From NCBI GenBank assembly GCA_027943245.1, contig JANDJZ010000319.1, positions 1 through 57,031 of the forward strand: a DNA stretch of 57,031 nt. Direction: 5' to 3'. The translations under genes were made by a program, and so were the position numbers. Shown piece after piece: positions 876 through 40,157 of this stretch. Positions within the stretch are counted from its first letter, which is position 1, and every line of letters starts with the position of its first letter. The stretch comes from Acanthamoeba sp. SK_2022b (Eukaryota > Discosea > Longamoebia > Acanthamoebidae). The notes under the pieces were generated by a model, which worked only from the letters and a program-made list of their open reading frames with translations, did not search any database and had not been told where the DNA came from.

Positions 876-2619
876 TCAAGACGAACTGGGTTCTTCTTTA
901 TTGGGCTCACGCGGTTTGGTGGCCGTGAAGAGGACGCAGTTGTAAACGGAATGGAGCATGGACCTGGCATCGTCGTCATAGGTGCACTGTCTTCGCTCCT
1001 CCTTCTGCAAGTGAGCGAACGCAATAGGTGAGCAGTGATGTCCAGTTGGCTTAGGATAATTGGCACGAGTGTTAGCGCATCTTTACCTCGATCACGAAAC
1101 CAAAGGACAGGATGACTTGCCTGAGCTCTTCCCAGGACAACTCGATCGAGAGCTCTCCCGGCATCTCCGACCAGTGATACAGCAGCGGACCTGATCGCAA
1201 CGAGGCCGGTATAAGGGAACTGCTCATCAAACAACACATATCCACGCGTACCGATGTTAACCCACACGCCGCCGGGCCTGAGCAGCCTATGGATGGTCTC
1301 CACATAGTCGACCACATTTTTGGCAGTGTCCATGAAGAAACACGTCGCCACACAGTCGTACGCTGTGACACGTGGTATCAGCCAAGCATGGAGGAGATCA
1401 GGGAGAGAAGTATGGCGATCTCCATACCATCATCGTCGTCGTAGAAGGACTCTAGAAAGTCGCCGGCCGCCATAGAAAAGTCGACGCCCTCCGGAATGTC
1501 GGTGGGGGACACATCGGGCACGTTGATCAGCCGGAATGGATCGTCGCTCTTTAACACGTTCGCTGACTGGAGCACAAACGGGAAGATGGGATACTGTTGG
1601 TTGCCGGTCCTACAATTTGAACGAATGGGTGGTCCGTGAGGAGCAGTGAGCTTTGAACGGACAAGGAAGGGGACAGGTAAAACGCCGCCAGCAATGGGCA
1701 AGAGTGCCTACCTGTTGAGAATGAAGCTGGAGGAGAGGAGCATGAAGAACGAGAACTCGTTGCCCTGGCACGCATAGCCTGCAACATCAGCGCGAGCATA
1801 CAGGTATTTAGCCTCCACAATGCAATCGGCCATGTTGTGCTCGATTTCGTTACCTCGTTTGGCCAGCTCCCAGGGCAAGCGTCCGAGGCCGCTGCCGGGC
1901 ACCAGAACACGCACAGAGTTGCTGAAGAGAGTGCGTCGTAACGAAAGGGCCCAAAGAACAAAGCCACCACACCACCATAAGCAAACACGGCAGTGCATGG
2001 AGACTAATGACAGCATTGACGGCACAGAAGAGAGAGACGCACAGCTCGGGACCTGGGAACCGGGCCTCGATCTCGTCGATGAGGGGTTGGAAGCATGCAT
2101 CTCGCTCCGCTTTGCCTTCTTCGCTCCACTCGCGAACGAACTGCTTGAGAGTGCTGCGCACCTTGTCCAGGTCGGCTTGCTTGGGCACCACTGCCTCGGC
2201 GAAGTCGTCTCCCGTTGCCTACAATCGTGTGGTAGGTATTTAAATATAAAAAAAATAACAAAAAATACAAGACGACGCGGGCGTACGCGTTGGTTCTCAA
2301 AGAGCTGGTTGACGGTCAGGATCTGCTCTATAAAGCAAACATTAAAATCGATGCAGGTCTTCATCTTCATCCACTTCTGTTGTGGCTTTACAAGCTCCTG
2401 CAGGAGCTGCTTGTGGCGCTCTTCCAAGCGCAAGAAATCCCGTTCCGCTTTCCTAACGAATGACATCGCCCAGTCTCGGTACTCTTTAAATGCATTGATG
2501 ATTCGCTGCAGCGCTTTCTCCTCCTCCACTTCCATCTCTTCTGGGGATGGGACTTGGTCGTGTGCGTGATTGTGGCCTCCACAGCTGTGCCCATGCTCGT
2601 GTGCATGCGCGTGCTCCAT
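876..2619 (-). CDS. CARNMT1: Carnosine N-methyltransferase (N2227 family)
   Basis: SAM-dependent methyltransferase of the N2227-like family; the characterised members make anserine from carnosine. The start is the ATG at 2619-2617. The N-terminus ([13 protein letters not shown]...) has eight His and a Cys in the first 20 residues. Then come the family helical region ([19 protein letters not shown]), the motif I loop [21 protein letters not shown], the [16 protein letters not shown] segment, the [11 protein letters not shown] acidic segment, and a C-terminal [14 protein letters not shown] strand joined across an intron. The last exon reads [20 protein letters not shown] and ends with TGA at 876. 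Six or more introns are needed. Order and spacing of the conserved blocks match the family throughout, so the assignment is firm. The substrate in an amoeba is not known from sequence. Confidence 0.92.
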
Positions 2620-2781
2620 TATTTTGTACGAATATTTAACAAACAATAAATAAATAAAAATATGGCAATGCGCTCTCTCGCATTGATTGAATGGATTTTC
2701 AACTAAGCGGTTTTTAAATAGGACTGTATTACTCTCTTCGTGTGGCGGGTCTGTGCAGGGAAAAGATTCATCTTTGGAAGT

Positions 2782-13618: not shown

Positions 13619-15835
13619 CTACACAAGAAAGTGCGCAAAGGTGGGTGACATCGCCCAGGCCAAGCTGTCATTAGATGTGGTGATGAGGCATGTTCGTGGA
13701 TCTGCAGGGGCCGAGGAAGGTGTTGCTGCCATGTGACGTTGGCCGTTCGGCTGCTGCGCGCGCTTGTTGTTCGTGATGACTATGACGTGCTCCGCGTCAG
13801 GAAGCTGGTCCGCGAGGAAGCGTCTCGTCTTGATCAGCTCCTTGATGTTGTCACTCTGGCTCAATGCCCTGGTCTGCGTGTGCTTAGCGCCGATGTAGAT
13901 CAGTACCGCCTGCGCCACCGCGGCCACAGGAGCTTAGAACGCTGGGCAGAGACACGATCTCGGAGACGGGAGTAGTAGGACTACCTTATTGGCGGGATGC
14001 AAAAGCTGCTCATTGAGCAGCCCGCCCAAAGTGTTGGAACTGGAGAGGAGGATCGCGTAGGGAGCACCGTGCGACAGCAGCTCAACGGCGGTGCCGTCCT
14101 GGAGGGTGATAGAAGTGGGCACCTTTGCTTCTGCCCCCTTATGCTCCGCCGCCTTCTTGGCTGCCGTCCACCACACTCCGGCCGCGGGAACCAAGAGGCG
14201 GCGCACTTTCGTTGCTCTCGCGAAGCGCAGCTCGGTGAGGGACACATCGCAGATGGTCCCACAGAAGAGGTCGCGCGCCTCCACGTAGTTGCGTCTCCGC
14301 CGACGAGCCCACTCGCTGGCCACGTTGTGTCGCAGGACGCGGTGTTGGAGGGCCAGCTTCTCAAAGCTCGCCGCGTTGGGATAGAAGCTGGTAAGGGTGC
14401 GGCTAGCAACGGCAAATAGCTCACAGTCGCGCGGCTGCTCGTGGCTGTCGCTTGTGGCCCGGAGCGCTGCTTGGGCCAACACGAAGGGAACCTCCATCAC
14501 CAGGTCCCGCTCGGAGATGTTCCATGTAGTGACCCAGTGTTCCTTGTCCCTGGGTGGGGGGCGCAAGTGCACGAGGCCGGCCCGCTCGAGGTGGGCCACG
14601 GTGATGCGTTGCGTGCGTGGAGTGCCAGGCTTGGAGATGACCGATTTGCGCGTCACTGGGATGCCTGCAAGCGCCAGCAGGAGCCCAAACAGGGCAGAGC
14701 CCTCCCGGCTCCAGCTGTTTATGTTGAACATCTCGGCGACTTCCTTGATGAGATTGTCGCTGATCCGATCGAGAGAAAAGGACTCAGAAGGCGAACCCTC
14801 TTTCATCAGCACGCGTTCGAGACACTCGAGGGCGCGCACGTTGCCGCCCAGGGTAGCGAGGAGGCGCCGAAACGGCTTGCCGCCCTTGTCGAGCCACTCC
14901 TGCCCGCTCACCTCCATCGCTCGCTGGCCATTACGGGGCGGAAACCGGAACGACGCTACAAGTTGGCTGATGGGTCCCGGCGAGAGGGGCGATAAGAGTA
15001 CGCTGGCCGTCGTGGCGTCTGTCGGATCCAGTACTTCGGTTTTGTGGGGCGCCGCTGTCCCGGTGAGTGTGCCCAGAACGAAGAGCCCCCGGGCCTGAGA
15101 GATGGCGGCCTGCAGCGCGCGGTTGAGGGCGGTCGACAGAGGCTCTTCGCGCATCTGTTGACCAAGACCTCCGCGATAGGGGACCATGATGTCGAACGCG
15201 GTCTGGATCTCGTCAATGGCGATGTGCAAGATCTCCGGAATGCGAGGGGACGGATCGGCGAAGGTGGGTGCCGCCTTGTGCCGCTGTACGCCGTTGAGCA
15301 CCTTGTCCAGCGCGAAGGTTCCCCAGAGTGTGGGATACTCGCGCACCTGCGACCTGAAAGCGCTGCACACCCAAGCATAGGGAACGTGCGGCAACCAGTA
15401 CTGGTGCGCCAGTCGCAGGCCGAGGATGACTGACGGTGGACACTTGACCTCATCCAGGGTGAGCGCGTTGCCGTTGTGGCGTATGTCTAGCACCACAGTC
15501 TTGCTGTTTGCGAGCGCTACTTGCAGCGCTTTCGCATCGCAACCGTTGTCAGCTAAGGAACGTGAATTTGCGTACTTCGCCAGAAGACCCAGCAACTCAA
15601 GGTTGAAGCGGGTCTTGCCCACACCACTCGTGCCGTGGATGAAGCCTGTCGACCACGCCTTCTTGTCTGCGAAGGAGCCACTACGAAATGCCCGCCAGCT
15701 TGGCACGACCACGCTGCCCCATAGCGTTTCGACAGCACCCATGCGGTCCTGTGCCTGGAAGGGGAGGCGGGTGGAGGTCGGGGAGTTCTCGAGGACTCTC
15801 GGCAACGGCCAGTCGTATATGGTGGCCATGTACAT
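13619..15835 (-). CDS. P-loop ATPase of Crinkler/RHS-like type
   Basis: Largely one long exon (15835 to about 13985), unusual among the intron-rich neighbours, plus a short last exon (about 13920-13619) joined by an 'AAG|gtagtc...gcgcag|GCG' intron. The start is taken as the ATG at 15835-15833 (MYMATIYDWPLP). Walker A is IHGTSGVGKTR near residues 67-76. A Walker B-like strand is ILHIAIDEIQ near 202-211. A winged-helix-like region follows and a C-terminal alpha/beta part (LLSHGAPYAILLSSSN, VLIYIGAKHTQTRA, EHVIVITNN). This ATPase plan resembles the P-loop modules of Crinkler/RHS proteins, which are expanded in some protists and linked to mobile or effector families. That assignment is by resemblance only. 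An additional upstream exon near 15850-15990 cannot be excluded. CpG is normal within the gene but depleted on both sides. Confidence 0.6.
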
Positions 15836-16704
15836 CAAGTAGTCGTGTGCGTCGTCTACAGGGAGGGGAATGCAAGTTAACTTGGGGCGAACAGGTGTGG
15901 GTCGTGCGGGTAGCTAGTGCAACCGTGGTTGTTGGAACCTCTTTTAAATGAGACCGTTCGAAGAGGGTGAACCGCAGATCGCTGATGCCAGGCAAGTGCC
16001 AATCTGGTGAGACCGGGACCTACATGTACTGCACATGCATAAAGGATATCAATTTGGTTATCAGAAAAAAGAAACCCATCAGAATGTTACGTGTGCTGTA
16101 CGTGCTGTCAAGAGATGCATTCGGGGAGGGAGAGAGCCCCATGCCAGTGACTGATGCCTAGTTGTGAACCTGCGCATTGCGGCTCACCGGGGGTGCTTTT
16201 TTCTTGGAGCTGAAGAACCTCCAAACGCCTCGTACTCTATTTGGTAGTTTGCTGTTTTTTATTCAACCTGCAATTTAAGATGCGCAGATCATCCACAGGT
16301 CATGCAGAGGGTCAGCTACAATGAGCACTGTACAAGCCATCTAAAGAAGGACCATAAGCATTCCAACTGCCTGCAGAGGACAAAAAAGCAAAAAAGCAAA
16401 CAAATCAATGTTGGCTAAGGAAAAACCTTGGAGAGCTGGAACAGAGAGGGCAATCACCAGTTAGTCTCCATACGTGCATGCAAAGCTCGCCCTGGGGAAA
16501 GTCAAAGGTGCACTTTACAGGAGTCACACCAACTTGTCAACCACCTGACTGACGTTGTGGAACATGTGCATGCACCAAGGGTGTTTCCACGATTGCTTTG
16601 CATTTGTAGTGTTTACAGGGTGACCTATGCCTTCCGCCCAGAAAATAGGCATAGGTAACTGCCGATGTGCCCTTCCTAGAGAACTCAAGATCGGACGGAA
16701 CGCG
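15836..16704. other. Gene-poor spacer, mostly CpG-poor
   Basis: About 870 bp between the P-loop ATPase start and the end of the chromodomain-DOT1 gene. The first 150 bp may hold the promoter or an upstream exon of the ATPase gene (a frame containing SDLRFTLFERSHLK). From about 16020 to 16680 CG dinucleotides are sparse (about 15 by eye), with no coding frame of interest. Confidence 0.6.
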
Positions 16705-19700
16705 TTAACTCTGTTGCTGCTGTTGTTCGGCCTGTTCGCGTCGAAAGGTGGCGAGGAGTGAGCCATCGGCGTCCCTTAAATTGCGCGCCGGCTCCCAACT
16801 GTTCTCCTCCTCGGGATATCCTGTCCGTGGCGTGGCGTGTGGCATAACGCGTGAGTTGTGAACAACAAACAAGAGACCGCTTTGATAACGAGAGGGGCTA
16901 GCAGGTACCGAGCCACTTGAGAAAGTATTCGATGCGGCCGTACCTCCTCCTCTCGGCCACGATTCGTTCCACCTTGTAAACGTGCTCCTCCTCCTCCTCC
17001 TCCTCCTCCTCCTCCACTTCTTGTTCTTCTTCCTTTTCCTCCTCCACTTCCTCCTCTTTTTTCTCCTCTCTCTTTTTCTTCCTTCCCCTCTTCTCGCCGT
17101 CGCTCTTTGACCTGGTCTTTCTCTTACTCGCCTTCTGTTGTACAGCCTCGCTCTCGCTCTTCCTCCTCCCCGGTCTCTTCTTCTTCTCTTGAACCTCCTC
17201 CTTCTCGTCGCTCGTCGCCGTAGTCGTTTCCTTAGCGTCGCTGTCGTCCACTCCAGAGCCGGCCGGGGCCGAGCTGCGCAGCCTTACCCGGCGCCTCGGA
17301 CGCTGCGGGTCTGGCGTGCGGCAGGCAGTCGACTGTACGTCGTCATCGCCGTCGCCGTTAACGTCGCGCGAGGCGGCGTCGAGCTCGGCAGCGGGAGTCT
17401 CGGTGGCCTCCTCCTCCTCCTCCTCCTCGCCTATCCCGGCTACTACGAACTGACACGCCTCCAGGATCACCTTCTGCGCCTCCTTGTCGACATCATCCTG
17501 TTTGCTGGTCCGTCGTCGCTTGGCAAGACGACGCTTGCCCGAGGGCTGCTCGTCGGTCTCCTCCTTCTCACGCTCCCTCTTTGTTGCCTTGGTCGCAGCG
17601 TCGGGCTTCTCCTTCGGCTTCTCGCCCAGCTGTTGTTTCCTGAGTCGCTCTCGCTCGAGCCGTTCGGCTTCCAGGCGCTCGGCCTTGAGCCGCTCCCGCT
17701 CGAACCGTTCCTTTTCTCGTTGCTCCTGGGCGAGCCGTTCCTTCTCGAGCCGCTCGGCCTCACGCCGTTCCGTCTCGAGCCGCTCCCTCTCGAGCCGCTC
17801 CCTCTCGCGTTGTTCCATCTCGAGCCGCAGTCGCTCTTCTTTAAAGAGCCGCGCCTTCTCCTTACGGATCATGTCCCGCTTGTGCTTCTCCATCCTTTCC
17901 CTCTCGCGCTCCCTCTCCCGCTCCCGTTCCCTCTCCCTCTCCCGCTCTTTTTCTCGCTCTATCTCGCGCTTGCGCTCCTCCTCCGCGAGTCGGGCTCTCT
18001 CGATTCGCTCCTGTTCGTGCTTGACCTTGGCTTGTATCTCAAGCCTCTCCTTGTCGGCCTCGTTGATGCGTCGGCGCACCTCGGCCCGGTATCGCGCCAT
18101 CTCGCGCCCTAGCTGGCAGTCGTCTTCTCCCGACAGCTCGACGGGCGGCACCAGCATCATCGAGATGTCCGCATCGAACCTGCGACCGAAGGCGCGGGAC
18201 GATGAATAGAATTTCCTTGAAAAGAGAGTTAAACCAAATATTATCGTGTGGGAGGGGCAAAACAGAAGATGAAAGGCCGTACTGCGATACGTCCTCCCCC
18301 TTGGCCCTGAGCTCCTCGGAGACTTTGATGCAGTCCATCACGCGCTCCTGCACGAACTTGAGCCGTAGACGCGTTCGCTCCTCGTCTTCACCGTCTCTGT
18401 ATTCGTCAAACACCACCGCGCCAGCGCTCGGCAGCTCTGCGGTAATGCCGGCCTTGGGCTTGCTGCCTTCCTTCTCGCCAGTCCACGAACCTCGAGAGCC
18501 GTTTCTCCACCCAACCGGCTCTGTTATTGCATTGTGTTATGGCTGTCAAGCACCGCCCCAATCCAAGGGAGGAAAAGGGTGAGACACGTAACTGTTGGCG
18601 TTGTAGAGGTAGTAGGTGATGCTCGCGCTGGTCCAAGGCACCGCCCCCAGCGGTGAAGCCAATCTACGTTGGTGCACGAGCCACGCGTGCAAAGAATGTA
18701 AGACGTGAGCGATAATGAGTGAGGGAGCAACAGGGGATAGTGAGGCCTACCGATGTGGTGTGCCGAGCATGCTCGATTCTCCCAGTTCTCTGCATACACG
18801 CGCAACACACGACATGAACGTGAGGTCATGAGGTATGAGTTCTAAACTTGCAGAGCGGGATATGGCCGTGCAGAAGCCAAGCCGATTGCTACTCACCGCA
18901 GGGAGACGACACGGGTGGCACCATGCTGGATGTTGACGACAAGCTTCCGGCGTATACGTTCGTTTTGTTGCAGGTCGAACGTCAGGTTATTGACAAATAC
19001 AACTGTCGCTTCACTGCTCGTAGCAACATGCACGAGAGAGAGAGAAGAAGAATAGGGCGAGCGAGTCAGAGCTTGAGCAAGCAGAGCGGCTAGCTTGGGT
19101 ATGGAGAAGAGATTACCCGAGACAAGGCGGCAGCAAGTCGAGGAAGTCGCTGCAGATGAACTCAACTCGCCCCCGCTTGTAAAGCCTGCCCTCATCCACC
19201 TGACCAAGGAGGGTACAGTGTCAGAGGTTCGCCCGGGAGAGTAGGCAGGACAGCCGGTCGAAGCGTACACGCGCGTCAAAGGCACGCTGAAGAGCGACGG
19301 CAGCGTTGTGCTGTTCCTTGTCTGACTCCACGGCGATCACGCGGCAGCCTGTCTGGGCCGCCACTTGCGCGGCGAGCTGGATAACAAGCCACCCGTTCAA
19401 ACCATTTCGTCGAATGCATCAGTTAAAAGGGATATAGGCAGAGCGGTACGTTGCCAGTCCCAGAGCCGAGGATGTAGAAGACATCGTTGGCTTGGATCGT
19501 GAGGCGGTGGATGAGGTCGTCGACGAATCGCGGCCCGACCTGCTGATGCGCTTGTAGCATCAGGTTTGGCTGAGTGAGGTGCTGCGTGGCCCTCCACAGC
19601 TCGATGAATGCCGCGCAGTTCATCAGCTCCCTTGTCGTTCCTTGCGGAATGGTCGTTTGGACCATTAGTTTACTTGCCGTCGTCTTTAGCGAAGGAGAAG

Positions 19701-19785
19701 GTGAGGAAGTTGAGGGTTCTGGATTCGGAGCGAGGAATTCGGTGGCCTCCAAGGGCCGCCTCCTCATAAGCCCTCGCCGATTCAT
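16705..19785 (-). CDS. DOT1-type H3K79 methyltransferase paralogue with C-terminal chromodomain
   Basis: The start is the ATG at 19785-19783 (MNRRGLMRRRPLEATEF). The DOT1 fold is assembled from several exons: FVDDLIHRL, then NDVFYILGSGTGN (motif I), LAAQVAAQTGCRVIAVESDK, RGRVEFICSDFLDLLP, EATVVFVNNLTF, and PLGAVPWTSASITYYLYNAN, which corresponds to the SVSWTGKPVSYYLH block of DOT1. In motif I the usual Asp (DLGSGVG) is Ile, and the YGE element ahead of it is missing, so activity may be reduced. Next is a long basic-acidic helix (R/E repeats, 17600-18100), then acidic and lysine-rich linkers. The C-terminus is a full chromodomain (from about 16984 into the last exon): VYKVERIVAERRR, IEYFLKWLGYPEEENSWEP, with Tyr/Trp/Tyr in the aromatic-cage positions. 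The stop is TAA at 16705. It is a head-to-tail neighbour of the second DOT1 gene. Confidence 0.85.
16985..17015. repeat. (CCT)n tract encoding poly-Glu
   Basis: A trinucleotide run of about 31 nt inside the chromodomain-DOT1 gene. On the coding strand it gives the Glu run immediately before the chromodomain. Confidence 0.9.
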
Positions 19786-19979
19786 CTCTTGTCCATCCAG
19801 AGCTTCTGGCCGTTTGTGATACAACGACTTTTCCCGCCTTATTTTCTTTTCATTGAAAGCTTGCCGTAGCAGAGCAGACACGTGGAGGGCTAGGGTTGGA
19901 AAAGGCCTCCCGACCACTCGCTGCAATAAAGGTTGGTTACAGTGCAAAATGCCACAATCGCCAGGGACAAAGCCAAGAC

Positions 19980-22900
19980 TCAGTCGGAGGAGCGGGCGGA
20001 GGAACGCCGCTCGCGTATCCTGCGCTGAAGCTCCTCCTTGCGCTTTTGCTCGTCCTCGCGCCACTGGTCCCAGCCGCGAAGGAGGTCCAGTTCCCTCTGC
20101 CGTCGAGTCTTCTTCTGACGTCGAGGCTTCTCCTCTTTCACATGCGCCCGGTCGCCGTTGCCGTTGCCCTCGCCGTCCGATTTGGCGGTCGCAGCAGCGT
20201 GGGCCGCTCCGTCCAGCAGCGGAGCCAGTCGAGGCAACGGGTCGCTGCCGGGCGGAGTGATCGAGGACGAATCGACCTCCTCGCACACGTCTCGGCTGCG
20301 CTCCTCCTGTGCCTCCTTGGCCTCCACCTCTCGCTGCATTTCCTCCCACTGCTTCCTCTTCTTGTCGAGCGCGGCTGGCGCCGATCGTCGGGCCAGCCTC
20401 TTCTTCTTTTGTACAGGCGCTTGGTCCTCCGTGTCTTGCTCTCCTCTCTTTTCCTTTGTCTCGTCCCCTTCGTGCTGCTTATCCGCCTCCTCCCGTTGTT
20501 GTCGCTGCTGCTGTTGCTCTTGGCTGCCCACGTTCTGGTCGCCTGACTGGCTGATGGCGTGGAGGGCCTTCCTGAGCGATCGGTACACGCTCCCATCCGG
20601 ACTCGTGAAGGTCCAGGCCATACCACACTTCCTCCGGCCCCATCCGTCCGGAAGCGGATGAGAGCTATTGGATCTCCTGCGCGTCTTCACCTCCGCTGCA
20701 GCAGCGACTTCCACGCTACTGATACCGTAACCACTGGGTTCGCCTTCGCCTTGGATGGCTTGATCGCGCTTCTCCTCCTCTTCCAACTCTCGCCGCTTCT
20801 TGTTGGCTGTTGCGGCGGCCCCGCGCAGGGAGTCTGACCGACGCTTGGCGAACCTCACTGGCACTGACGGCGACGGCGCGGGCGACGAGTCGGGAGTGTC
20901 CTGGGCGTCCTTGAGGCGCCCTCCCTCCTCGATAAACTCGCGCACCTTCTTCAGTGACGTGAACACTTCGCCTGTGGGTGACGTGAACTTGTAACGTCGG
21001 CGACCGCCGGGCTCGCACCTGATCTTACGGATCCAACCCGGCGGCAGAGCGTATCCCGTGACAGGGCTGGAGCCGGTCACTGGAGGCGTTCGGTCCCAGA
21101 CTGAGACCCTGGGACTCCCCCTCGCAGACACTGCTGCCGGCTGCTCGGCCTCGGATTCGGAGGAGAGGGCAGGGCTGATGTGAATGTAGGGGCGACTGTC
21201 AGCGGTGACATTGACGAGACGACTCCCGAATCCAATTGCAAACAGGCGTACCTGGGCTGCTGTCGAGCGTCGTGTTGGAGACTCCACTTGGCGAAGTCGG
21301 CGGCGAGGGACTCCCACTCGCTGCCGTTCGTTGTCGAGAGGCGGCGTGGGGTAGCGCGCTTCTTGGGCAGCTTCACCTCCTTCTTCCATCGCTTCAACTC
21401 GTCCTCGAGTGTGGCCAGAGTCACGGGGATGCTCTCGCGGTTAGTGTCGCCCCCGGGCTCGTGCGTTCTCCTCGCCTCGATTTGCCACGAGACAAACTGA
21501 TCCGCTAGCTCTTCGAAGCTGGCATCGTGTACGGTCGACGACGAGGACGACAAACGGGCCGTGGCAGGGCTCCCTCGGCGTTGGCCATTCCTTGCGCCAC
21601 CTCTTGATCGAACTGCGCCCTTGGGTTTATCCAGATCGCCGCTCAATTCAACAAACTTGAGCGTTTCTCCAGCTCGCTGATTGCTGACCTCCAACCTGTG
21701 ACAGTGCGTGTTAAATGAAAAAAATAGAAAAGAATTAAGTATAAAAACATCAAAGAAAGGAGACGGAGAACGTACTTGGCGGTGTCACAGCCAAGCGACT
21801 TGAGCATCTGGGAGACCGCGTGTCCCCTGCGCAACACGTGGAGCAGATGCTTGGCTGACGCACCGCGGAACTCGGCCTGTATGAGAGCACCCATCTCGAC
21901 GTCGCTGTTTTCTTCGCTCTCGTTCCCCTTGCCCTTGGCGGCAGGGGAGGGCGCCGCTGGATCAATGACGATTTCTCCGTCCTGAAGCGAGCACACCAGG
22001 TTGTCGCTGAGCCGAAGCCCCTTCTTTGCAGCCTCTGGGTAGTGTAGGAGGGCCAATGTTGGTCGCGACAGTCGAAGAGAGGCACGGTCACGAGCTCTGC
22101 TTCCACAGCTTCACCGACAGGCACCACGAACCTTTGAACGCCTTCTGTCTTTCGAGGTTGTTTCTATCGACCTGGTAAATGAAGTACTCCACGCTCTTGT
22201 CTGTCCACGACACCGCGTCGGGCGACGAACGACATCTAGCGTTGGGGGGCAGAAACCAAGACCGTTGCAGTGAACACCATAATAAGGAAGATAAGAGACA
22301 CATTGGGCCGTACTTGAGCCACGGGAACTTGAAGAGGTGACAATAGCTCTTCACGAATCGAGTGCTTGTCGGCCGGAACCGAGGCGCAAAATCCCTACAT
22401 CCGCAGTATGTCGTATCAGGGATCACGGTATTGAGTTGCAAAATGGAAGCGCGGGTAATGGATGATGCATGACTCGGAGAATGAGCGTCACTACCAGACA
22501 CAAAGGAAGGAGCAAGTACTTGAGCGTGATGATCCTGACCCCACTGCTCAAGCCAGCCTTGAATTTCTTGAGCACACTCTGCTCCAGATGCTGCGGAAAG
22601 CAGTAATTGTTCAAGAACACGACCGTCGCCTTGCTGCAAGGGGAGACAGTGGGTCAGTAATCAAACAGCGCTGGCGACAGACCAACGGTGGGTGGGCCAA
22701 ACGCACCTGAGGTCTACCTCTGGGCTCAAGATGTCCCCACACACGAGCTGCACCTCTCCCCGCTGGAGGTTTGCTCTTTGCAACTGGTGCAAATACGGGT
22801 GAGACCCAAGCGTCCCGCTCTCGCGACGGGGGGCATACCAGAATCTGATAGTTCTTGAGCAAGGCTTGCCCAATCGAAGTGAGCTCACTCCTAATCTCAA

Positions 22901-23239
22901 CGCCTACGGCCACACAGCCCGTTTGCGCCGCCACTTGCAGCACCACCTGTGAAACGCCCCTTAGAAGAGGAAGAAGATAAGTTGGGAAGACAAGTTCGCT
23001 GCACGTACATTGCCCACGCCGCTACCGAGATCATAAAGCACATCTTGGCTCGATAGCCTGAGGGCCTTGATAAAATCGCTGACGAGCACTGGATTGACTT
23101 CGCCGTACACTTCCTTGCTGGCCGGAGCATAACGGCGCAACACTTTGGGATCATACTCAGGTGTCATCTCCAGCACCTGCTCCCATATCGCCTCATAGGC
23201 AGCGAGCGAGATGAAATTCTGGCTCGCCTTTCCTGCCAT
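19980..23239 (-). CDS. DOT1-type H3K79 methyltransferase with two MBD-like domains
   Basis: The start is the ATG at 23239-23237 (MAGKASQNFISLAAYEAIWE). The catalytic core is complete: KEVYGEVNPVLVSDFIKAL, VLYDLGSGVGN (motif I with Asp), VVLQVAAQTGCVAVGVEIRS, GEVQLVCGDILSPE, ATVVFLNNYCF, then SPDAVSWTDKSVEYFIYQVD, the DOT1 C-terminal strand block. After a Ser/Lys-rich middle come two modules of methyl-CpG-binding type: GYALPPGWIRKIRCEPGG with YKFTSPTGEVFTSLKKVREF (about 20919-21050), and HPLPDGWGRRKCGMAW with TFTSPDGSVYRSLRKALHAI (about 20541-20657). Both have the LPxGW start and the SPxGxxFxS strand of MBDs. A long charged tail ends RERRSSARSSD, TGA at 19980. DOT1 methylates nucleosomal H3K79; MBDs bind methylated CpG DNA. 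The combination suggests DNA-methylation-guided histone methylation, which is inference. Confidence 0.85.
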
Positions 23240-36507: not shown

Positions 36508-38659
36508 ATGGAAGAAGAGGACAAAGGCAGGGTAGACGACGTGCTCAGACTCGTACGGCGCGACTACGTGGAGCTCATTACGATATGGAACAGCATCGGC
36601 CTCGCCTCAGAGAAGAAGAATGCCGAATCACAAACCCTACAGCAAGAGATTGAAGAGCTTTTCAAAGTTCGCCTCACTATGTCACACTCCACCGTCGCTT
36701 GACAGACCTTCTCATCTCTGGTATTTCTCATCTATAGCGCAGGCTTATGGACTTGGCCAAGTTCAAGGAGGAGATGGAACGGGAAATTGCCTCACTACAC
36801 ACCGCCGTATGTGAGCTTCGCGCTCTCCTGCCCGACCTCGACACCGATTCGCTCTGTGGCGTACGCTCTCACCTTCGCCTATGCCTTTACACACACGGAC
36901 CTCAGTCCTTACCTCTGACATTGCACGTCCACGCCCACGGCTAACCCACCCTTGCACCTCTTGTTGTTAGAAATACGATCCCAAAGCGCACCTCTACGTA
37001 CAAATGGAGCAGCTGAGGGCCATTCGCGACACCTTGCAATCGGCACGTGCACATTGCTTGCTTGCCCCAACGTTTCGCTCTCCCCCGTGTCGCGTGGTTG
37101 GCGTCGGTCTTGATCTCATCATTCCTTTGCGGCGGCGGCGGTGGTCAGGCCCGGGAGGAGCGCCTGCGTGCCATGCGCGAGATACAGTCGCGGTTCCTTG
37201 CCCTGTGCGAAGAGCTCAGGTGGAAGAACGAAGCCGAGGCGGCCGGCACGGAGCGCCGAGGGGCGGGAGACAACGACGACGATGAGGAGAGCAACGGAGG
37301 CGACGAACTCGCCTCCGATCGCCGTAGCGCGGATGAGGAGGGCCGCCTGCTGCCCGCCGACTTCTTCCTTCCGCCCGAGCACGACCTCTCCGAGGCCCGC
37401 TTGGCCCGCTTCAAGGAGAAGGTGGCCGAGGGCGACAAGGAGCTGGTATGTGCAGCCATGAATGACCCTGCGATGTGCACCGGCCGCTCTGACGCATGGC
37501 CTCTCTCTCTCTCTCTCTCTCACTTATGTATCAACACGCAGGATGAGCTGAAGAAGCTCGTGGCGCCGCTGAAGCGAGACATCGGCAAGCTGTGGCAGGA
37601 GCTCTACATCACGCCGGACCCAACCGACGAGCTGGACAACTTCGTAGTGGGCCGCCGGCCGTGCGCGTCGATCGAGCAGCTGCGGACCTTTGACGTCGTG
37701 TGTCGACTGCGGCGCAAGAAGTCGGACCTGGAGGAGGAGCGTGATCGACGACGGAAGGCCCTCGACAAGGCCATGGACCACATCCGCGAGCTCTGGGCCA
37801 TGCTCAAGATCAACGAGGACGACCAGGACAGGAGGGAGTTCCTTGTCCGTAAGGACGCCCTCCCCGCTTACTCTGCACAGCAGATCGCTGTGGTGCGCAT
37901 GCCCCCCCCCCCGTCTTTTAATTTTCTAATCGACGTCTCAACAATCTATCGGTTCAATCGCTCAACTCCTGCTCCACGACCGATCTAACGCTGGCAATGC
38001 CACGCGCTTGCGGTGGCTGCGTTGAAACAAAACGCAGTGCAAGGAGGAGCAGATGCGGCTGGAGAAGATAAGCGAGTCCAAGATAAAGGAGATGATCGAG
38101 GACGAGAGGAGTCGGCTGAAGGACCTGTGGAAGCAGCTGCACATGAGCGACCAGCAGATTCAGGAGTTTCTCGACTCGCTGGCCAACACCGGCGCCGGTA
38201 AAACGCCCACCCCGCCCCACTCCGTCCTATCCGTGGTCTCCTTCGCGGCCTGAAGCATTCCGCTCATTCCATTCGCGCTCGTCCTCTGGGGTGCCAGGCA
38301 AGTACTCGTTCGACGTGCTGGAGGCGATGCGGGTCGAGGTGAAGATTTTGACGGAGCGGCTGGCGCGAATGGGACCGCTGATCAAGCTCATCGTGCGGCG
38401 CGAGTGGATCAAGAGCGAGATGCGGGCGTTCGAGACCAAGGCCTCGGAGAAGTCCCGGCTCTTTGGGCGGAGCACGCAGCTGCTCGAGGAGGAGAAGTTC
38501 CGGAAGATCGTCGCCCACGAGTTCCCGCGGCTCACCGACAAGCTCAAGAAGGGGCTGGTCAAGTATGAGGTGACCCCTCCCTCCTCTCACGTTCTCTCTG
38601 CCCGTGCACCCTGCCCGCCGCAACGCAGGGCCTCCACTCACCCACGCACGCTAGACTCA

Positions 38660-38729
<70 letters not shown>

Positions 38730-40157
38730 CAACCATCGCAGAGCAAATACACGGAGCGGTTCGTGTTTCAGGGAAAGCGGTACCTCAAGACCATGCAGGA
38801 GGAGCAGCAGCAGCCCAACTTTGCTCTGCTTCACCTCAAGCTCTTCTCGGGTCAGTTCGCCCTCTCCCCTCCCCTCCTCTTCCCCTCACTCCTACCTCCC
38901 GCCTGGCGCTGGCGGTCTTTCTCACACGACGGGGCTCCCTACTGCCGTGCAGGCAACGGAAAAGAGGAGGCGCCCGTGAACAAGCAGAACCTGATGGGCA
39001 TGATCACCATGCAGAAGAAGGAGAAGCTCCCACCGCCGGTATGCATGTGCCTGTGACTGTTAAGAGAGGACGGGGAAGGGAGGGAGGCGCACGCGTGCTC
39101 ATGCGGTGGTGGCGCCTTTCTTTCCGCTCCAGGAGCCGGCTGCGGCGGCTCCCGCTTCCGTCGCTCAGCTCGCGGGGTCGTCTTCGCGGGTTCCCACCAA
39201 GCAGCACACTTCAACGAAGTTGTCGTCCAAGACCTCCTCTACCACCACCACCACCGCTTCATCCTTGTCGACCTCGACCTCTCGAACCAAAGACCCTGCC
39301 ACTGACTCTGCCACCTCTCCGACTCGCTCCACGTCCACTTCCACTCCATCCAAACCTTCTTCATCTTCATCATCATCATCTTCCTCCTCCTCCTCGACTC
39401 GACCAAAGACTCCCTCAGCCAGCAAGGAGAAACCAGACAGGCCACCGGCCACCCCAGCCTCTGCGACCAAGTCCAAACTCGCGCGAGAGGAGAACGTGGT
39501 CAACGGCAGCAGACCAGCGCCATCAGCAACGCCTGCTGGAGAGAGCAGTAAGGCCAAGCGATACAGTGCGACGCTGTCGAACTCGGGCGTGCTCTTCACG
39601 CCGGGCCGCCCCAGCAATCGAGGTACGGCGGGGGCACGGGCGACCCAGCTTTTGCACGGAAGCCTCACACCAAACTCTCTTGACAGCAACCATCGACGTG
39701 CGTTCGGTGCTGAGCGGCAGCTCGAGCGCCACTCCCTCTGCCGCCTCGCGGAGCCGAACGGCAGCAGCCGTATCGACAGCGGCCACGCCCTTGAGAGACT
39801 CATCAAAGAGAGGTGCCAAGCCCACTGCCCATCCCTGTGCCACAATCGCAAGCCACTTGGCTTGGCCTCGGCATGCCGGCCACTAACCCTGTGCCCTGCA
39901 GTCCCCGCCACGCCTTCTCGCACAACAGCTCCGTCGAAGGATCCTGCGGCTACACCCGCGCGGGCCTCCAAGTGCGCTCTCCTCCCTTCCCTTTTGTCAT
40001 CATGACGTTGATCACGCGGTGTGATGGCTGACCCGCAACTGAATCGAATGGCAGGGCGGGGACGGCCAAGCCTCCAGAGGACGAGAGCGCAACGCAACCA
40101 CCATCGTCCTCCAGACTCAATCGTTCATTGTCCTCGCGAGCTGTGCGCAACATCTAG
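36508..40157 (+). CDS. MAP65/Ase1/PRC1 microtubule cross-linker
   Basis: Antiparallel microtubule-bundling protein of the spindle midzone and cytokinesis. The start is taken as the ATG at 36508 (MEEEDKGRVDDVLRLVRRDY); an in-frame ATG at 36412 would add 32 residues. The N-terminal dimerisation/rod part includes ELITIWNSIGLASEKKNAES and LKRDIGKLWQELYITPDPTD. The spectrin-like core shows the repeated L-W pattern (DHIRELWAMLKINEDDQDRR, SRLKDLWKQLHMSDQQIQEF). The microtubule-binding end has REWIKSEMRAFETKASEKSR, LLEEEKFRKIVAHEFPRLTD and KYTERFVFQGKRYLKTM, corresponding to the FTNRGG...LLKEEK...LP region of PRC1. A Ser/Thr/Pro-rich basic tail (39130-40150), probably phospho-regulated, ends LSSRAVRNI with TAG at 40155-40157. 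Introns contain a CT tract (about 37500-37521) and a long GT microsatellite. Confidence 0.88.
38663..38728. repeat. (GT)33 microsatellite in a MAP65 intron
   Basis: A perfect GT dinucleotide run of 66 nt in an intron, ending about 14 nt before the CAG acceptor. Confidence 0.97.

Follow-up and report, generated by a model that had tools for sequence, protein, structure and literature searches.

The 57,031-nucleotide contig JANDJZ010000319.1 of Acanthamoeba sp. SK_2022b (assembly GCA_027943245.1), referred to here in its full length as the window and corresponding to contig C487 of the 44.9-Mb, 1129-contig genome that was scanned, carries two neighbouring genes, B and A, with domains of the DOT1 histone methyltransferase type. 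A profilin encoded in this genome has PDB 1f2k and 1acf, both Acanthamoeba profilins, as its nearest matches. We favour, with moderate confidence, the view that gene B is likely a methyltransferase of lysine 79 of histone H3 (H3K79) bearing two modules of predicted MBD fold, and that gene A acts mainly as a chromatin-tethered, catalytically impaired relative with a predicted HP1-like chromodomain. DOT1 enzymes are the type that methylates H3K79, and those of human and yeast are not known to contain an MBD or a chromodomain. Among histone lysine methyltransferases they represent the non-SET type, and their di- and tri-methylation requires H2B ubiquitin in yeast and human (PMC10951340).

Gene models and their support

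Both genes were modelled manually on the basis of their open frames and splice sites, and the 16 chosen introns (16/16) have GT..AG ends. The locus is organised as follows:

23239-19980, minus strand: gene B, 870 amino acids, nine exons, all GT-AG
23239-23009, 22946-22839, 22783-22707, 22633-22520, 22394-22314, 22235-22132, 22034-21776, 21695-21252, 21174-19980, minus strand: exons of gene B
19786-19979: intergenic gap between B and A, 194 bp
19785-16705, minus strand: gene A, 792 amino acids, nine exons, all GT-AG
19785-19450, 19376-19269, 19199-19117, 19013-18897, 18789-18751, 18663-18593, 18520-18283, 18179-16909, 16820-16705, minus strand: exons of gene A

An alternative start for gene A is the ATG at 19665. 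An earlier sequence-only reading of this DNA had described two same-strand neighbours 194 bp apart, both assembling DOT1 folds and continuing into unrelated C-terminal halves, one of which ends in a chromodomain. The models bear this out: in the search with hidden Markov models (HMMs) both spliced proteins exceed the Pfam DOT1 cut-off and contain the motifs that had been quoted, and the second halves consist of two MBD-like modules in B and of a charged linker followed by a chromodomain in A.

The closest relative of gene B is P0001, a protein of 913 amino acids read from a 4,020-base contig. It aligns with gene B without gaps over the first seven of the eight exon junctions, differs by a gap of one residue at the last junction and shares the same tail. 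Taking into account that P0001 is uninterrupted while gene B has eight introns, it is most simply explained as a spliced transcript. Both the splicing of gene B and the fusion of DOT1 with two modules are independently supported by this relative. Over the DOT1 part the two proteins are identical at 224/240 positions, over the 90 residues that follow at 77/90, over the subsequent linker at 90/169 and around module 1 at 42/60. In the predicted model of P0001 (mean predicted local distance difference test score, pLDDT, 62.4), the DOT1 domain and the two small modules are confident and the linkers have low confidence. When this model was used in Foldseek, human DOT1L was ranked first, with yeast Dot1 and Trypanosoma brucei DOT1A lower in the list. 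It has to be noted that, between residues 691 and 870 of gene B, the extreme C-terminal tail (RRQRELD.LRGWDQWREDEQKRKEELQRRIRERRSS) is near-identical in P0001 although the linkers differ. This tail, modelled as a helix, is a possible nucleosome-binding element.

The DOT1 domain of gene B

22175-23152, minus strand, amino acids 30-224, introns included: DOT1 catalytic domain of gene B, with VYGE, DLGSGVG, GVE, VVFLNN and VSWT

The product of gene B scores 135.4 bits with Pfam DOT1 (E 2.4e-39; cut-off 23) and matches human DOT1L chains (E 6e-27) and yeast Dot1 (E 4.5e-15) by sequence. Of the seven DOT1 motif strings tested (X, I, II, III, IV, VI and VIII; PMC10951340), five are exact; motif III reads DIL and motif IV NNYCF, and both deviations are common to P0001. 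Gene B has motifs X, I, II, VI and VIII in common with human DOT1L and yeast Dot1 (KMT4). Conservation was examined over 109 other DOT1 rows, comprising human, Balamuthia mandrillaris and 107 unpicked rows taken from the protein search (fungal where named), and gene B keeps 21 of the 22 columns that are invariant across all of them. On its sequence, gene B is a conserved DOT1, and likely the H3K79 methyltransferase of the cell.

The DOT1 protein of B. mandrillaris (P0002, 1295 amino acids) has a DOT1 domain with 51% identity to that of gene B, the alignment covering 92% of the query part, but differs in having a CUE domain by Pfam and no MBD-like module. This ubiquitin-binding CUE domain (45 bits) is suggestive, given the link of DOT1 with H2B ubiquitin. 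A search of a viral fold library gave a Hyperionvirus DOT1-domain protein as best match.

The MBD-like modules of gene B

20916-21053, minus strand, amino acids 514-559: MBD-like module 1 of gene B
20541-20660, minus strand, amino acids 645-684: MBD-like module 2 of gene B, homologous to module 1; pLDDT about 90 in the equivalent region of P0001

Both modules are short, follow the pattern LP.GW...F.SP.G, are mutually homologous (hhalign probability 94.7) and, by prediction, have the MBD fold. The predicted model of module 1 matches solved MBD structures, and on the spliced protein this module scores 19.8 bits with Pfam MBD (cut-off 21) and 28.4 bits with DUF7028 (cut-off 27). In the genome search, Pfam MBD reached 21.7 bits for the gene B modules, and DUF7028 reached 18.1 bits. 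A plant connection of DUF7028 was set aside, as PMC4416881 yielded no passage on an MBD of IDM1 under the terms used. P0001 has no Pfam MBD match up to E 0.1, and no MBD in the PDB was matched by the sequence of module 2. A histone methyltransferase with an MBD fold in cis recalls SETDB1 and SETDB2, which combine MBD and SET methyltransferase domains, whereas in gene B the catalytic domain is DOT1.

The Arg of the MeCP2 'FRSK' sequence is taken here as the residue contacting methylated CpG. At this position, module 1 has Thr in gene B and Val in P0001, and module 2 has Arg in both. Thus, the proposal that gene B carries readers of DNA methylation holds for the predicted fold, and is weakened by the Pfam MBD scores, at or below the cut-off, and by the Thr of module 1. 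The same residues bear on a rather unlikely alternative, according to which both genes would be active H3K79 methyltransferases, the chromodomain directing A to chromatin methylated at H3K9/K27 and the MBDs directing B to methylated DNA: the Arg of module 2 speaks for it, and the replacement of this Arg in module 1 of both proteins speaks against it.

The diverged DOT1 domain of gene A

18593-19533, minus strand, amino acids 85 to about 251, introns included: diverged DOT1 domain of gene A
19540-19554, minus strand: QAHQQ in the place of motif X (EVYGE), in a single open exon and independent of splicing
19450-19476, minus strand: motif I of gene A, YILGSGTGN, with Asp changed to Ile

Gene A is recognised by Pfam DOT1 (69.5 bits, E 3.8e-19, against the same cut-off of 23) and by its sequence match to DOT1L (E 6e-8), and is identical to gene B at 63 of 227 aligned positions (28%). 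It keeps 14 of the 22 invariant columns. The eight that are lost comprise the Leu preceding motif X, which falls in a gap, the whole YGE triplet, the Asp of motif I (Ile in gene A), one Val changed to Ala, the Gly of motif II, also changed to Ala, and the Ser of motif VIII, replaced by Pro. The YGE of motif X and the Asp of motif I, identical in 109/109 other rows, set gene A apart from human DOT1L and yeast Dot1. According to PMC10951340, the cofactor is bound through motifs X, I, II and III, and the lysine channel involves motifs X, IV and VIII. As motifs X and I of gene A lie in one uninterrupted exon, their loss cannot be attributed to splicing, and a splicing error was rejected as the cause of the main losses. 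Among the 77 columns conserved in 90% of the rows, a set biased towards fungi, B keeps 45, P0001 46, Balamuthia 45 and A 32; due to this bias, the 22 columns identical in all the rows are the fairer test.

Thus, gene A is probably a fast-evolving, catalytically impaired DOT1, and a DOT1 domain devoid of these key residues would probably act as a chromatin-bound partner rather than as a second enzyme. The sequence-only reading had proposed a pair of H3K79 writers; this is likely for gene B, and is undermined for gene A by the columns lost, by QAHQQ in the place of VYGE and by the changes in motifs I, II and VIII.

The alternative of two active writers finds support here, since gene A scores above the DOT1 cut-off and retains the glycines of motif I, the Glu of motif II, the NN of motif IV and the Trp of motif VIII (VVFVNNLTF, VPWT). 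Moreover, Trypanosoma DOT1A and DOT1B, which resemble this pair in that there is more than one DOT1 per genome and motif X is missing, are both active minimal enzymes of fewer than 300 residues (PMC10951340). However, motifs I-III of these kinetoplastid enzymes are canonical (PMC10951340), whereas gene A has alterations in each of motifs X, I and II.

Duplication of the locus and relatives of gene A

The sequence-only reading had also suggested a tandem duplication, and the introns agree with it. Introns 1-5 occupy identical alignment columns in A and B with the same phases (0, 0, 2, 2, 2), and intron 6 has the same phase in both at positions 18 columns apart, so that five of the six compared introns are identical; introns 6 and 7 share their phases (1 and 2) in both genes. 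Common intron columns and phases indicate the duplication of a gene that already contained introns, and thus A and B are, as far as their sequences tell, tandem duplicates. Chance was rejected as the origin of the pair, taking into account that two HMM-positive genes have common intron columns.

In a maximum-likelihood tree of 20 rows (five named ones and 15 of the 107 others), gene A joins B, P0001 and Balamuthia with weak support (83/73), and its end branch is the longest in the tree, with 3.5 changes per column. No full-length A-type relative was found in the protein search, which yielded one fragment, P0110, from another sequence source. Its 173-amino acid reading, which is taken to run through introns, contains A-type exons 2 and 4, identical to gene A at 51 of 75 positions (24/36 in exon 2 and 27/39 in exon 4), and has the extra residue that is specific to A in motif VI. 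In the corresponding exons, B and P0001 are identical at 35/36 and 36/38 positions. A-type genes therefore seem to evolve faster than B, and P0001 and P0110 may stem from different species.

Such divergence could also be expected if gene A were a functionless, decaying duplicate, a possibility to which we assign a very low probability. It draws on the long branch, on the low identity to B, on the loss of eight of 22 invariant residues and on the fact that no transcript-like relative was found. However, all nine exons of gene A are open and have GT-AG ends, the GC content of third codon positions is 0.74 in A and 0.73 in B, compared with 0.52 for GC in introns, and the chromodomain is intact. 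In addition, the presence of P0110, with its A-specific residues, in another source indicates that A-type genes persist, which argues against simple decay.

The charged linker and chromodomain of gene A

17630-18109, minus strand: charged stretch of gene A, 160 residues, 68% Glu/Arg/Lys, without proline
16741-16978, minus strand, amino acids 732-781: chromodomain of gene A, divided by a phase-1 intron (16821-16908)

After the DOT1 part, gene A encodes the charged stretch, then an acidic run and finally the chromodomain. The stretch possibly forms one long helix; its net i+3/i+4 charge pairing was above that of 1995 of 2000 shuffles, and E-to-K/R(i+4) pairs were not above shuffles. The spliced model scores 50.9 bits with Pfam Chromo (cut-off 25.1), and the domain aligns to HP1 chain 1kna (E 3.2e-14), with YKVER and KWLGY of gene A facing YAVEK and KWKGY of HP1. 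The Y, W and Y of the aromatic cage, whose positions are taken as those of HP1, are thus retained. Chromodomains are common in this genome, since the genome search gave 48 Chromo matches; the intron-split domain of gene A is not among them.

The fusion of DOT1 and chromodomain in gene A is a prediction that rests on splice logic. It could be argued that the charged linker and the chromodomain belong to a separate gene, gene A consisting of the DOT1-like domain alone, given that the join passes through short introns, that the sequence following YYLYNAN stays open in two frames for some distance and that a Met-Met lies close to the start of exon 8. Nevertheless, the frame is continuous, the GT-AG introns involved have the phases of introns 6 and 7 of gene B, and intron 7 would leave just 103 bp as intergenic region. 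Two genes in the place of gene A are therefore, in our opinion, highly improbable.

Proposed roles of the pair

Taken together, these data are best accounted for by a conserved enzyme and a diverged, chromatin-bound partner. Gene B would methylate H3K79, and its MBD-like modules, or its C-terminal half, could anchor it on DNA or nucleosomes. After the duplication, gene A would have lost efficient binding of S-adenosylmethionine and efficient binding in the lysine channel. By its remaining DOT1 fold, together with the chromodomain on the long charged linker, gene A might occupy nucleosomes methylated at H3K9/K27, and could in this way exclude gene B from them or modulate it. Functions of Dot1 independent of methylation have been described in yeast (PMC6265471).

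Several observations weigh against this proposal. The retained NN, motif I glycines, motif II Glu and motif VIII Trp may allow gene A some activity, and T. brucei DOT1A/B are active in spite of lacking motif X (PMC10951340). P0110 keeps GVE and NN, so the change of GVE in gene A is not general to A-type sequences. The seven motif regular expressions matched 12, 107, 1, 85, 2, 6 and 15 of the 107 unpicked rows, and VYGE was found in just 12 and VSWT in 15 of them, which makes exact strings a poor yardstick; as a missing string is weak evidence alone, the case is built on the comparison of columns. In gene A, the 39-nt exon 5 and the passage from exon 6 into exons 7-8 are predicted, and no transcript-like gene A protein was found in a search that sees just relatives of similar length sharing short words. 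Regarding phylogeny, which the sequence-only reading had put forward as a check, gene A falls near B, P0001 and Balamuthia, but weakly, and a clade of A, B and P0001 is rejected (p-AU, from the approximately unbiased test, 0.018), the branch of gene A being very long. This placement may stem from a duplication of older date, the A-type copy being lost or undetected in Balamuthia, or from a long-branch error. Finally, the genome family search hit the exons of gene B and overlooked gene A itself, and other diverged copies could escape in the same way. No further DOT1 gene appeared when the genome was searched exon by exon (next match outside the locus, E 0.83), and the count of one DOT1 locus is therefore a lower bound.

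A more elaborate arrangement can be conceived, in which the chromodomain of A would keep H3K79 unmethylated in silent chromatin marked by 5-methylcytosine (5mC), opposing the MBD-fold-bearing writer B; we give little credence to it. In Acanthamoeba, such chromatin is enriched for virus-derived genes.

Chromatin context in the genome

In Acanthamoeba castellanii, silenced and virus-related genes are reported to carry 5mC together with H3K9me3 (PMC12344493), and DNMT1, UHRF1, CDCA7 and HELLS are present (PMC10538959). The genome analysed here contains, on contig C265, a DNMT-like gene, read as intron-split and considered a candidate eukaryotic DNMT, with a BAH match of 14.2 bits that is below the cut-off. 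Together with the coexistence of 5mC and H3K9me3 in A. castellanii, this gene favours the alternative of two active writers. Matches to PF00145 on C152, C44 and C231, which are C5 methyltransferase genes, were dropped as support for 5mC, being intronless and bacterial-looking by eye, and C421 and C832 were assigned to neither kind; the assembly thus seems to include bacterial sequence. At C434:46500-50500, an MBD is followed by Pre-SET pieces, which makes this region a SETDB1-like candidate H3K9 methyltransferase.

The K79 context of H3 (AQDYKTDLRF or AQDFKT/DLRF), the substrate of the activity proposed for gene B, was found in four of the six contigs with H3-like loci that were read, a set that does not include C356. 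In the remaining two, the variant frame of C734 stops before the K79 context and C387 has no frame. The H3 on C734 is divergent: its core is altered (RKMAFRRLVLEIGQ), its ARTKQTARKS tail looks intact, and it is perhaps a special variant.

DOT1 diversity and significance

The idea that DOT1 is usually single-copy and free of reader domains applies to yeast and human, and fails for brown algae, kinetoplastids and dinoflagellates, where several DOT1s exist (PMC13076208, PMC4751559, PMC10951340). A parallel is offered by brown-algal DOT1.1-DOT1.5, lineage-specific copies with novel domain associations, one of which has a 'degenerated DOT1 domain'; they differ in comprising at least five subfamilies instead of one tandem pair (PMC13076208). 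A Dot1 survey has covered genomes including that of A. castellanii (PMC4751559), and among the papers searched, which do not comprise subscription ones, no title or abstract opening dealt with the present pair. Since expansion of DOT1 with new partners and a degenerated copy is already in print for brown algae, the kind of event is known, and it is the combination of DOT1 with MBD-like modules and of a degenerate DOT1 with a chromodomain that appears to be new.

If the proposed roles are correct, this locus would be a simple genetic system in which to ask whether DNA- or H3K9-methylated chromatin can steer or exclude H3K79 methylation. Both modifications are reported for silenced and virus-related genes of A. 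castellanii (PMC12344493).

Other features of the window

Adjoining gene A, a 659-amino acid open frame (13937-15913, minus strand) contains a P-loop-like motif, GTSGVGKT, and has no Pfam match at E 0.001 and no NCBIfam match at E 0.01. The open frame at 1708-2778 (minus strand) resembles carnosine N-methyltransferase (CARME), and pieces of a MAP65/ASE1 microtubule bundler are found in two open frames at 37017-39883 (plus strand).

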